64,000 nucleotides of DNA, from NCBI GenBank assembly GCA_016187565.1, contig JACPJR010000035.1, positions 1 to 64,000 on the forward strand. Direction: 5' to 3'. Under the pieces are notes generated by a model that did not search any database, was not told the origin of the DNA, and worked only from the letters and a program-made list of their open reading frames with translations. A program made the translations under genes and the position numbers. Of this stretch, positions 41,298 through 44,147 are shown in pieces; position 1 is the stretch's first letter, and each line of letters starts with the position of its first letter. The DNA comes from Candidatus Woesearchaeota archaeon. Its GTDB lineage: Archaea > Nanobdellota > Nanobdellia > Woesearchaeales > JACPJR01.

Positions 41298-41377
41298 CAC
41301 ATTTATAGAATGCTATAATAGAAAACCTAAATTTTTAATATTATAAAATTGTAGGGCGAATACCCACTGATTCACTA

Positions 41378-41437
41378 AAAAATTTCTTTGAAATTTTTGG
41401 TGTCCCAGAAATTGCTTTGCAATTTCTTAGGATATCT
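41378..41437. repeat. AT-rich double-hairpin element, copy 1
   Basis: Hairpin 1, AAAAATTTC-ttt-GAAATTTTT, then GGTGTCCC, then hairpin 2, AGAAATTGC-ttt-GCAATTTCT, then AGGATAT. The same order (TTTTTGG, TCCCAGAAAT, ATTTCT, GATAT) occurs at 43204-43254, where the element interrupts the transposase gene. Here it lies at the broken end of the reverse transcriptase remnant. Confidence 0.65.
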
Positions 41438-41484
41438 GTGGGATGAAGCCCGTCGCCTCCTTCTCGTGTTTGTGCAAAAAGCAG

Positions 41485-41631
41485 GAGAAGCTCTGAGCGA
41501 AGCAAAAGCAGATTTTCTTTGAGATTCTTCTCAAACTCAATAATATAAGGTTTTGTCGTCTTGCGCTTTCTTGCTTTTTTGTAAGCGAGAAAAAGATTAT
41601 CGTAAGAGCATAATGCGCCATATAAATCCAT
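41485..41631 (-). pseudogene. Reverse transcriptase remnant of a diversity-generating retroelement
   Basis: About 49 codons from the ATG at 41631 encode MDLYGALCSYDNLFLAYKKA and FEKNLKENLLLLRSELL. This resembles the N-terminus of DGR and related reverse transcriptases, where a Y/F-x-NL-x-LAYxxARxxK segment is followed by an FExNLxxNL helix. Beyond 41485 the similarity stops, and the frame runs on to 41341 through repeat-derived sequence. The palm domain and the YxDD active site are absent. It lies 27 nt after the template repeat, the normal DGR order. The family call from this short piece is moderate on its own and is strengthened by the TR/VR pair. Confidence 0.68.
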
Positions 41632-41658
41632 AATGAAAATCCTCGACAAAAGGTCATT

Positions 41659-41740
41659 CCGAAAGCGCCATTGTTGTTGTCGAGGTTCCTGTTGTTGCCA
41701 TTGACATTGAAGCCGTTGTCAGGGCCATAGACACGCAACC
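41659..41740 (-). repeat. DGR template repeat (TR)
   Basis: An 82-bp segment nearly identical to the 3' end of the variable-protein gene (VR, 41968-42052). On the minus strand it would encode LRVYGPDNGFNVNGNN and RNLDNNNGAFG, with many AAC codons. By hand alignment 13 of 14 substitutions between TR and VR fall on adenines of TR (11 of 12 if the two beside a 3-nt indel are left out). This is the mark of adenine-directed mutagenic retrohoming. The last identical block is TGGCGCTTTCGG. The 184 bp between TR and the variable gene contain no recognisable gene, and no Avd-type accessory gene is seen. Confidence 0.9.
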
Positions 41741-41924
41741 CAAGCGCTAGCCATTTTACTTATCTCTCACCGCAGGTTCAGCCGTATAACCCTAGGATTA
41801 TGTGTCCCTGCTGAATTTCATAGCTTCCAATGGACAGCCTTAGTAAAATGGCGTGTGGCCTTTAAACCATTGTTCATGGCTGTCGAGGCAAAAATAAAAT
41901 AAGAAGGATTATATTTAATTCTTT

Positions 41925-42644
41925 CTACTTTTTTGCGCCGCCTCCGGCGGTTTTTTCAAAACGCACCCCGAAAGCGCCACCGTCGTTGCAGTCGAGGAAC
42001 CTGACGTCGCCATCGACATTGACGCCGAAGTCAGGGCCAAAGACACGCAACCTATTTACATACGGACCTCCTTGAAATTTAGCATAATCCTTATTGCCAA
42101 AAACCATTGATTGGGAGCCTCTTCCTTGTTCTTTTAGCCAATCGCCATAATCCTGAGCTTTGATTCTCAAACTTTCATCAGAAAACAATCTAGATGTTAA
42201 TTCAAACTGACCAAATTCAGAAACGAGTATGTCTGTTTGTCCATGATTAGCAGTAAATGCAGTGCCTTTTCCTAGCATTTCATCAACAATACCATAAACC
42301 GAATCTCTTTGATTATTAGGAAGAACACATTCTCTGCCTTGCTTATGTGCTTCAACTAAATTAGGTATGCCGACGAGGTTGCTTATTGCTCCATCTGGGA
42401 CTATAACAACCTGATTGGTTCTATCATCATAAAATACATCAGCATTTGTCCTGCTGTAAGGGTTAAATGTATCTTTTGGTCCTTGTACTCGAAGAAAACC
42501 TAATTCTGCTGGGGAAACCATATGCATGCCATGAACTGCAAAAGCCGCTTCCTGGACATCCAATGGCGCTTCTTTGTAGCCATAAGTAACAGTGTATAAT
42601 CCTGCTTGCGTTTTACTGACCTTCATTTCCAGATTAGGATTCAT
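41925..42644 (-). CDS. DGR variable (target) protein
   Basis: A 239-aa protein with no signal peptide or membrane segment, so probably cytosolic. The N-terminal about 170 residues (LYTVTYGYKEAPLDVQEAAF, NPYSRTNADVFYDD, VVIVPDGAISNLVG) are of unknown fold. The C-terminal about 60 residues (NRLRVFGPDFGVNVDGDVRF, then DCNDGGAFGVRF) look like the C-type-lectin/FGE-like ligand-binding fold of DGR targets, with variable codons at VF, DF, GD and DV. A TATA-like GATATATAAATC (about 42691-42702) and GGAGG before the ATG show intact expression signals. It ends in a Gly/Lys tail. Confidence 0.85.
   Translation of the reverse strand: MNPNLEMKVSKTQAGLYTVTYGYKEAPLDVQEAAFAVHGMHMVSPAELGFLRVQGPKDTFNPYSRTNADVFYDDRTNQVVIVPDGAISNLVGIPNLVEAHKQGRECVLPNNQRDSVYGIVDEMLGKGTAFTANHGQTDILVSEFGQFELTSRLFSDESLRIKAQDYGDWLKEQGRGSQSMVFGNKDYAKFQGGPYVNRLRVFGPDFGVNVDGDVRFLDCNDGGAFGVRFEKTAGGGAKK
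41968..42052 (-). repeat. DGR variable repeat (VR)
   Basis: An 85-bp 3' segment of the variable-protein gene (about codons 198-225) aligned to TR. Template AAC codons have become TTC, GAC, GTC, TTC and TGC, AAT became GAT, and TAT became TTT. One change is not at an adenine (TTC to GTC), and VR has one extra codon near the 3' end. The outer blocks GGTTGCGTGTCT and TGGCGCTTTCGG are unchanged. Confidence 0.9.
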
Positions 42645-42730
42645 TTTGTTAAGCCTCCAATAAGAGTATGTAAGACTAGAAAAATGCTTTGATATATAAA
42701 TCTTTCTTTTTTGATGTTACTACAAAGTGG

Positions 42731-43302
42731 CTAATGCTCTTGTGTGAAGCCGCCTATTTTAAGCTGCCCTTTCAATTCTTGCGGGCATCCATAAATATCA
42801 AACTCAAAAACAGATTTGCCCATCTGCTCCTGAATATATCTCTTGACTTGCTCTTGCGAAACGTGTCCAGCAGAGCCGCAGTAACAACCTCTTGCCCAGA
42901 GAGCATCAAATCCTTTTCCAAAATCTGCTTGTATCCCAAGTATTTCAAATCTGGAAATACCCGCCTTAATTGAATTGAAGTATTACCCTTTAACTTATGA
43001 ATGATTTTGAAAGGTGTTACTGTCGGTTTTGTGCCTACAAACAAGTGCAAATGGTCTGGCATTATCTCCAGAGCAAGATTGTTTAAGCTCAATTCTTGGC
43101 ATTGTCCGTCAATAATTGTTTTTAAGACTTCTCTTACTTTGCCTATCAAAATTGGTTTCCTGTACTTTGGAATCCAAATAATATGATAATTGATATTGTG
43201 CACAAAAATCGGAGATTTTTGGCATCCCAGAAATCATTGATTTCTGTGATATTTGCAATGATGAGAAGTTCTCACCGTTGCTATTTTACTCTCGATTTTG
43301 TA
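42731..43302 (-). pseudogene. tnpA: IS200/IS605-type Y1 transposase TnpA, disrupted twice
   Basis: An HUH transposase for single-strand transposition. The longest frame (42772-43203) has YHIIWIPKYRKPIL and the HUH motif IMPDHLHLFVG. After LRRVFPDLKYLGYKQ the homologous protein continues in another frame as GKGFDALWARGCYCGSAGHV, VKRYIQEQMGK (with the catalytic Tyr) and GGFTQEH, ending at 42731. One missing G (AAGGCA to AAGCA, near 42923) explains the shift. At the N-terminus VRTSHHC is separated from VHNINYH by a 51-bp double-hairpin insertion (43204-43254) carrying a stop. The gene is therefore inactive. Its true start is uncertain. Confidence 0.85.
43204..43254. repeat. AT-rich double-hairpin element, copy 2, inserted in tnpA
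   Basis: A 51-bp insertion between the codons for SHHC and VHNINYH of the transposase. It consists of hairpin CAAAAATC-gga-GATTTTTG, GCATCC, and hairpin CAGAAATCA/TGATTTCTG, then TGATATTT. It shares order and linkers with the copy at 41378-41437, although the hairpin arms differ. A single clean insertion into a gene suggests that the element moves, or was moved, as a unit. Confidence 0.65.
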
Positions 43303-43342
43303 CACTTCAGGATTGAAGTGCGGATATTTGTTTTTAGTCATT

Positions 43343-43440
43343 GCGACCACCTCACTTTGAAGGTGGTTGCTTGTATCAAGAGGGAAAAGTTTAAGTAAAA
43401 TGGTTTGCGTGAGAAACCCCCAGCTTTAGCTGGATTTATT
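43343..43440. mobile_element. Probable end of the IS200-type element
   Basis: Upstream of tnpA (to the right on the map) are two hairpins: ACCACCT..AGGTGGT (about 43347-43370) and CCAGCT-tt-AGCTGG (about 43420-43433), preceded by GAGAAACCC. Subterminal hairpins of this kind mark IS200/IS605 ends. The exact tips are not determined. No tnpB was found beside it. Between here and 43532 there is AT-rich sequence without a gene. Confidence 0.45.
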
Positions 43441-43532
43441 TTGGGAGTATGTTATTTGTTAGGTTTTCTAGTATATAATAGAGGAAAAAACATAGTAAAT
43501 ACTATTATCCTCTATTATAGTTCCCGAATGAT

Positions 43533-44147
43533 TTAGGTTATGAACTCCTTTGTGATTTCTACAAATATTTCTTTATTTCGCTCAGATTTATAATTTTTGG
43601 TAAGTTTAAGTACACGCTCATCATTGATCTGAAATCCTTTTTGAGAGAGCATTTTCCTAAGCTTTTTTCCCAGTAAAAATTGGCAAAATTGGGTAACATT
43701 CTGTGGCTTTTCAGTGTACCTGCAACGCTCAAAATCAATCATTATGGGCTTTCCTTCGTGAGTAACAAGAATGTGTTTTACTGGATGATGCATCTCTTCT
43801 TTGGTTAAGCCATGCTGGTCAAGAAGATAACATTGATCAAAAATATCTTTCAAGACATTACCGATCTGTGCCTTGGTTGCAGAAGCAATGAAATCAAGGA
43901 TTGCGACACCATCAACAAACTCGTAGATAAGTTCATGCTCCGACGAAGCAATCAGTCGAGGACCAATGCCATACTGATTTACCTTTTGAAGCATTTTTCC
44001 TTCATACTCAATACGAAAGTATGCATGACTGTGTGGATTCTTCTGCTTAATACAGACTTTTCTATCCTCTAATTCAGCAGTGTAAACAACTCCACGTTTT
44101 CCTTTGGCAAGAAAGGTTTTATTGGTAAGCTGGTCAGTAAGCTGCAT
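43533..44147 (-). CDS. Small archaeal Ser/Thr protein kinase-like protein (COG2112 type)
   Basis: A 204-aa single-domain kinase-like protein. It has FLAKGKRGVVYTAELEDRKV (glycine loop), CIKQKNP with the ATP-site Lys, FRIEYEGKMLQKVNQYGIGP, LIYEFVDGV as hinge, and LTKEEMHHPVKHILVTHEGK followed by MIDFERC, where HRD and DFG are replaced by HHP and DFE. This matches the short archaeal kinase group related to Bud32/RIO. Activity is likely but unproven because the catalytic Asp of HRD is altered. It stands alone on the minus strand. Confidence 0.8.
   Translation of the reverse strand: MQLTDQLTNKTFLAKGKRGVVYTAELEDRKVCIKQKNPHSHAYFRIEYEGKMLQKVNQYGIGPRLIASSEHELIYEFVDGVAILDFIASATKAQIGNVLKDIFDQCYLLDQHGLTKEEMHHPVKHILVTHEGKPIMIDFERCRYTEKPQNVTQFCQFLLGKKLRKMLSQKGFQINDERVLKLTKNYKSERNKEIFVEITKEFIT

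Follow-up and report, generated by a model that had tools for sequence, protein, structure and literature searches.

A degraded diversity-generating retroelement in an apparent IS200/IS605-type transposon of a woesearchaeal archaeon, and a putatively switchable reverse transcriptase among its relatives

We analyzed a 64,000-nt stretch of DNA (hereafter the window), comprising positions 1 to 64,000 of contig JACPJR010000035.1 in assembly GCA_016187565.1, from the DPANN archaeon Candidatus Woesearchaeota archaeon (GTDB lineage Archaea; Nanobdellota; Nanobdellia; Woesearchaeales; JACPJR01). The window was compared with the 1.94-Mb host genome, two contigs of which are named C5 and C26 below, and with 353 genomes of the same order, coded G for genome and L for locus. 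It contains a composite element of ~2.1 kb, the cassette of which consists of a variable gene, an RT-16 RNA, a template repeat (TR) and the remnant of a reverse transcriptase (RT):

41341..43455, minus strand: whole composite element with left end, broken tnpA, DGR cassette and right end (identity to C5; LE and RE scans)
43406..43455, minus strand: left end (LE), from LE scans, with a hairpin CCAGCTAAAGCTGG at 43433-43420
42740..43350, minus strand: tnpA, a broken Y1 (IS200-like) transposase gene (PF01797, E = 5e-24; NF033573)
41925..42644, minus strand: variable (target) gene, an intact ORF of 239 aa with homologues at C5 (48%) and in G073 (73%)
41968..42052, minus strand: variable repeat (VR), 85 nt, at the 3' end of the target gene (TR/VR alignment)
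41742..41907, minus strand: RT-16 structured RNA (Rfam RF03019), the DGR template-RNA leader (covariance-model score)
41659..41740, minus strand: TR, 82 nt (TR/VR alignment)
41481..41649, minus strand: N-terminal remnant, ~55 aa, of a DGR reverse transcriptase (PHROG 1423; match to the C5 RT)
41341..41451, minus strand: right end (RE), GGGCTTCATCCCAC ... GTGGGTATTCGCCCTACAATTTTATAA, with a hairpin

The original prediction had read this locus as a diversity-generating retroelement (DGR) on the basis of adenine-directed differences between TR and VR. A computed pairwise alignment on the minus strand returned the same coordinates for both repeats and a single 3-nt insertion, which lies in the VR. 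Optimal gap placement put 12 of the 13 substitutions on TR adenines (Fisher p = 8.8e-8); the 13 of 14 that had been counted by hand corresponds to one of the equivalent gap placements that are one match worse (p = 1.4e-8), hence substitutions are enriched at A under either. Broken down by template base, changes affected 12 of 22 A, 0 of 22 C, 0 of 21 G and 1 of 17 T, that is, a single one of the 60 non-A positions. When the VR was taken as the reference, the changed letters were G and T, which makes the direction from TR to VR clear. The VR ends ~14 codons before the stop of the target ORF, and the TR lies in non-coding DNA downstream of that ORF. Two further differences beyond the repeats (CGG-AA-TG in the TR, CGG-GG-TG in the VR) look like IMH*/IMH rather than mutagenesis; the same GGAAT/GGGGT pair was seen again in other DGRs of the set. 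Because the TR/VR differences are A-specific, the locus has undergone reverse transcription with errors at A and replacement of the VR, in other words mutagenic retrohoming, in the past. No extra VRs of this TR were found elsewhere in the host genome beyond chance.

We also considered an ordinary duplication of the gene end with no DGR involved, since the two repeats are 312 bp apart and 81% identical. This explanation, which the original prediction had already held to be difficult, has a negligible probability: the substitutions have a direction and a base specificity that refute it, and an RT-16 RNA, an RT remnant and a like architecture in relatives accompany the repeats. The RT-16 RNA lies directly 5' of the TR and scored 67.7 bits against a gathering cut-off of 50 (E = 8.9e-10) with the whole model covered; it shows no difference of note from the RF03019 family. 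The C5 copy of this RNA scored 47.6 bits, under the gathering cut-off of 50. The RT starts just after the TR, so that the order of variable gene, TR and reverse transcriptase is as had been predicted. A-specific repeats, a template RNA above cut-off and an RT remnant together uphold the assignment as a DGR.

The remnant matches the PHROG 1423 reverse transcriptase (E = 1.9e-8) and corresponds to amino acids 12-63 of the C5 RT with 75% identity. After the codons for ...RSELLL the sequence joins directly, at 41480/41481, to the non-coding tail that precedes the RE. The RT is therefore broken by an internal deletion and not by a stop codon, and the window locus is a degraded DGR that is not self-sufficient, its cassette having no DGR-type RT beyond these ~55 N-terminal residues. 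The description of a live-looking target gene next to a broken enzyme thus holds, as the 239-aa ORF is intact. Its dN/dS outside the VR (0.45 against the G073 homologue, 0.40 against that of C5) indicates purifying selection there, which by itself is no proof of current diversification. The target protein had no Pfam, NCBIfam or PHROG match, and an AlphaFold2 model, built from three homologues only and inspected for a C-type lectin fold, reached a pLDDT of 35.

Cassettes homologous to that of the window, at C5 and in G342 and G200, encode nearly full-length RTs that match the BPP-1 RT. The best PDB match of the RT of G342 (L131) was 8ub7, both by sequence (E = 1.5e-46) and by fold (E = 6.8e-25); the title of this entry names a DGR ribonucleoprotein RT, which we take to be that of BPP-1. 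No Avd gene was seen in the DGR-carrying elements. In G006, G007, G115, G157, G178 and G250 we noted RT places showing that many RTs of the order lie in open frames of 550-620 aa, which suggests that these are fused or extended.

Next, we examined the element around the cassette. Its LE starts ATAACATACTCCC, most copies starting ATGACATAC. The tnpA gene carries two lesions, a two-hairpin insert at ~43246-43204 and a 1-nt frameshift at ~42925, and the loop of the RE hairpin is split by a small palindromic insert (about 41370-41437). A near-identical RE was found in L121, an element of another family. Two-hairpin palindromic inserts of the type CAGAAATn..ATTTCTG GGATGC CAAAAATn..ATTTTTG are recurrent, both in tnpA (window 43204-43246, L033) and in RE loops (window, L047, L171, L172). 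A kinase-like gene with weak Bud32/WaaP-type matches (43533-44147) adjoins the LE.

The only PF00078 (RT) match in the host genome is on contig C5, where a Y1 transposase gene, a homologous target gene, an RT-16 RNA, a second TR (82% identical to that of the window) and an RT follow one another in the order seen in the window. At the DNA level the two elements are 73% identical across 1.8 kb, which extend from tnpA as far as the RT remnant, and they have in common a left end ATRACATACTCCCAAAATAAATCCAGCTAAAGCTGGGGGTTTCTCACGCA and a hairpin right end CATCCCAC...GTGGGTATTC. A recent duplication from C5 to the window was considered and rejected, given the 73% DNA identity and 48% target-protein identity between the copies and the closer target (73%) in G073. 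A solo left end, with neither tnpA nor a DGR, lies on C26 (L024:4546-4612; G000:C26:18543-18618).

Elements with a DGR as cargo were found at six loci: the window, C5 and four loci in four other genomes. The copy in G342 (G342:C24, L131) is intact throughout, with tnpA (188 aa, carrying MPDHLHLF), a target of 299 aa, an RT of 366 aa and both ends. G200 (L033/L135) has a tnpA-target-RNA-TR-RT unit between LE and RE. In G198 (L047/L137) the RT of the DGR element is deleted to ~44 N-terminal residues, and G073:C53 (L139) has no tnpA; its RE remains, its left end is degenerate and its RT has lost an internal part. An internal RT deletion with target and TR kept thus occurs in three of the six elements (window, G198 and G073:C53). 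The targets of the window, C5 and G073:C5 form one family, to which the targets of the other elements had no match by tblastn. At G073:C5 (L127:660-2200), an LE and tnpA precede the 73%-identical homologue of the window target, TR and RT having been lost; another DGR, complete and separate, is located 5 kb downstream.

The ends are not confined to DGRs. LE matches occurred in 38 of the 353 genomes. The RE pattern was matched 45 times across 32 genomes, compared with 7 matches of the reversed control, and the LE and RE hairpins are common to DGR and non-DGR elements. Other cargo between like ends (L121-L126, L170-L172) includes Eco57I-type restriction-modification, Fic, DUF2157 and other membrane proteins, and glycosyltransferase-like genes; no tnpB was seen in these elements. 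The element in L033 sits in the last codons of proA. Removal of its 3,229 bp rejoins proA as ...KKNFLHKKIR*, where relatives without the element have ...FTHKRIK*, ...FTHRKLA* and ...FVHRKLV*. Since proA is rejoined precisely, tnpA, target, RNA, TR and RT appear to have entered as one piece. At this one reconstructed empty site no target duplication was evident; ATGAC is constant at the LE.

It could be argued that the DGR and the IS200 transposase are chance neighbours rather than one mobile unit, given that the window tnpA is dead and that a tnpA of this kind is missing from the surroundings of most RTs of the order. Most DGR RTs of the order lie outside such elements, and the element RTs cluster in one neighbourhood of the RT tree alongside RTs without such ends. 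A chance association is nevertheless very improbable: a like gene order between like LE and RE recurs at five loci in four genomes and at a sixth that is without tnpA, the whole unit was inserted precisely in proA, and the same ends occur with other cargo. Judged by its hairpin-bearing ends and gene order, the DGR cassette is cargo of an IS200/IS605-type (Y1 TnpA) element, and such units were very probably moved by TnpA in the past.

With its own RT lost, the window copy would be served only in trans by another DGR RT, for which the C5 RT is the sole candidate in the host genome. In such a scheme, the RT-16/TR transcript would be reverse-transcribed with errors at A, and the mutated cDNA would replace the VR in the adjacent target gene. 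Among the relatives' set we found 119 RT-16 RNAs in 83 of the 353 genomes. An RT match lay within 700 nt downstream for 86 of them, a figure that includes the window and G198 with their RT remnants, and none did for the other 33. Template RNA apart from its RT is therefore common in the order, and 28 of these 33 RNAs sit in genomes with an RT elsewhere. At least nine of the 33 are opposite in strand to an RT on the same contig. Among the RT-deleted elements, those of the host and of G073 lie in genomes with another RT. The recurrent loss of the RT makes use of another RT in trans plausible but unproven; with no more than 82% identity between the TR of C5 and that of the window, recognition in trans is not assured.

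An alternative to this trans step alone is that the window copy is a dead remnant, last retrohomed with its own RT and now acted on by nothing. The deleted RT and doubly broken tnpA are what a decaying copy may look like, and the C5 RT gene, as assembled, has a shifted frame and lacks its GMPLG motif. Yet the near-absence of TR/VR differences outside adenines, in an element otherwise 73% identical to its C5 copy, the intact target ORF with its dN/dS of 0.40-0.45, and the frequency of RT-16 RNAs without a cis RT in genomes with another RT speak against a dead remnant. We regard the dead-remnant explanation as equally likely to be right or wrong; that the C5 RT still acts in trans on the target in the window is a tentative proposal, against which we lean somewhat.

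Upon closer inspection of the C5 RT gene, we noted that it is interrupted by a run of 27 G (L003:6817-6843) in the loop between RT motifs 3 and 4. These 27 G replace conserved codons, and the GMPLG motif beside them is missing; this and the unusual length of the tract raise the possibility that the C5 RT is misassembled or dead. We fetched the RT loci of the order and tabulated the loop in the 116 RTs with both halves. A repeat was present in 12 of the 116, ten being poly-G of 7 to 27 and two (CT)n:

Loop tracts: L003 (C5 RT), L033, L037, L052, L054, L056, L058, L060, L061, L068, L215, L221

Four of the 12 RTs with a tract were in frame and eight out of frame, against 101 in frame of the 104 without (Fisher 1.2e-7). 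The share of four in 12 equals the one third expected under random tract length. In all eight out-of-frame RTs both halves are open, and a change in tract length alone opens the frame. The repeats are concentrated in the loop, with 12 in its 5.0 kb, three in the remaining ~114 kb of the RT genes (a fourth listed there was the C5 tract counted again and was left out) and eight in 263 kb of flank. Repeats noted in RT genes outside the loop are G9 in L251, G9 in L256 and (AG)10 in L272. The RT tree requires at least three tract changes on supported branches, and eight in all. AlphaFold2 modelled the L131 RT with a pLDDT of 89.6; internally, values fell under 50 at residues 184-190 alone, which form the tract loop. 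All three transposon-borne DGRs that keep both RT halves (C5, G200 and G342) have a tract. We found no loop repeat in 73 viral or bacterial DGR RTs with motif 4, a control picked by contiguous match in which frameshifted RTs are under-sampled. A query with the C5 RT alone returned no RT relatives in viral contigs, one with an alignment of 63 RTs returned 80 viral contigs, which were used as control only, and a DNA pattern of poly-G plus motif 4 returned none in viral contigs.

Poly-G is a known artefact of two-colour Illumina sequencing, and the replacement of conserved codons by the C5 tract also fits a sequencing or assembly artefact, such as G calls from dark cycles. We consider this source of the tracts improbable, however, as a single ~45-nt RT loop contains all 12, in metagenome-assembled genomes of different genera, two are (CT)n and not G, both sides are otherwise open, and the 1.94 Mb of the host genome contain one other run of nine or more G. 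Contingency loci are characterized by a simple repeat within the reading frame, an in-frame share near one third and a lesion at the tract only. The RT gene of C5 and its relatives bears this signature, with an in-ORF repeat, a frame set by repeat number and a mix of on and off states. Given a simple-sequence repeat in the flexible motif 3-4 loop, in C5 and 11 others, slipped-strand changes in length should switch the RT on and off, and it is likely that tract length does so in living populations.

Taken together, our results favour, with good though not full confidence, an overall explanation in which the window holds a small IS200/IS605-type transposon with DGR cargo, in a copy whose RT is deleted and whose TnpA is dead, while the RT of the C5 copy would be switchable. 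A broader proposal, that the RT-internal tract gates hypermutation so that a minority of cells would hypermutate, and that RT-less IS200/IS605 copies such as the window's would be trans-diversified satellites, we hold to be possible but, by a narrow measure, questionable.

DGRs of DPANN archaea (clade 5F in PMC10907252; surveyed in PMC8144416) resemble those described here in A-specific TR/VR differences, a VR at the 3' end of the target ORF, a DGR-type RT and the occurrence of several DGRs per genome. Here, by contrast, the DGR is the sole cargo between IS200/IS605 ends, the RT has an internal deletion, we saw no Avd gene in any element, and one loop of the group's RTs holds simple-sequence tracts. 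IS200/IS605 (Y1 HUH) insertion sequences likewise have a PF01797 TnpA and subterminal hairpins at both ends, and the one site in proA suggests precise insertion as well, but the present elements carry cargo (DGR, restriction-modification, Fic, membrane proteins, glycosyltransferases) in place of tnpB. In Thiohalocapsa PB-PSB1, DGR RTs were lost to transposons and MITE-like repeats and some targets are diversified in trans (PMC10907252), and thus RT-less target loci with an RT elsewhere in the genome and degradation by mobile elements occur there too. In that genome, however, mobile elements damage DGR loci, whereas in the present set the DGR is borne by the transposon, and RT-less derivatives arise by internal deletion.

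Transposons are described as common beside DGRs in CPR and DPANN (Paul et al. 2017, as cited in PMC10907252). The DiGReF survey reported DGRs that hitch-hike on mobile elements, as well as A-only VRs next to truncated RTs (PMC3521204), and IS200/IS605 genes lie near variable proteins of cyanobacteria (PMC7517822). Broken RTs beside A-only VRs and an association with mobile elements are thus shared with our set; we found in these two papers no defined LE-tnpA-DGR-RE unit and no phase-variable RT. Bacterial phase-variable contingency loci with poly-G or dinucleotide tracts (reviewed in PMC11868660) resemble the RT tract in its position in the frame, the in-frame share of about one third and the lesion confined to the tract, but the gene switched here would be a mutagenic reverse transcriptase, and archaeal. 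In our literature search, Paul et al. 2017 apart, no DGR was described as lying between IS200/IS605 ends, nor did the search find a DGR with phase variation, a homopolymeric tract or a repeat-switched RT. While DGRs and IS200/IS605 elements are themselves known, the union of the two and the putative RT switch both appear to be new within the literature searched.

Two questions become testable. One is how DGRs spread between cells and genomes, on which a small transposon with target, template and RT as a single mobile unit, along with its RT-less derivatives, bears directly. The other is how constant activity of a mutagenic RT is prevented in the cell. A phase-variable RT, if true, would explain alternating phases of diversification and selection, as considered in PMC8144416, with no regulator needed. 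It would also be, within the literature searched, the first contingency locus to turn on and off a mutator aimed at one gene, and an archaeal one.
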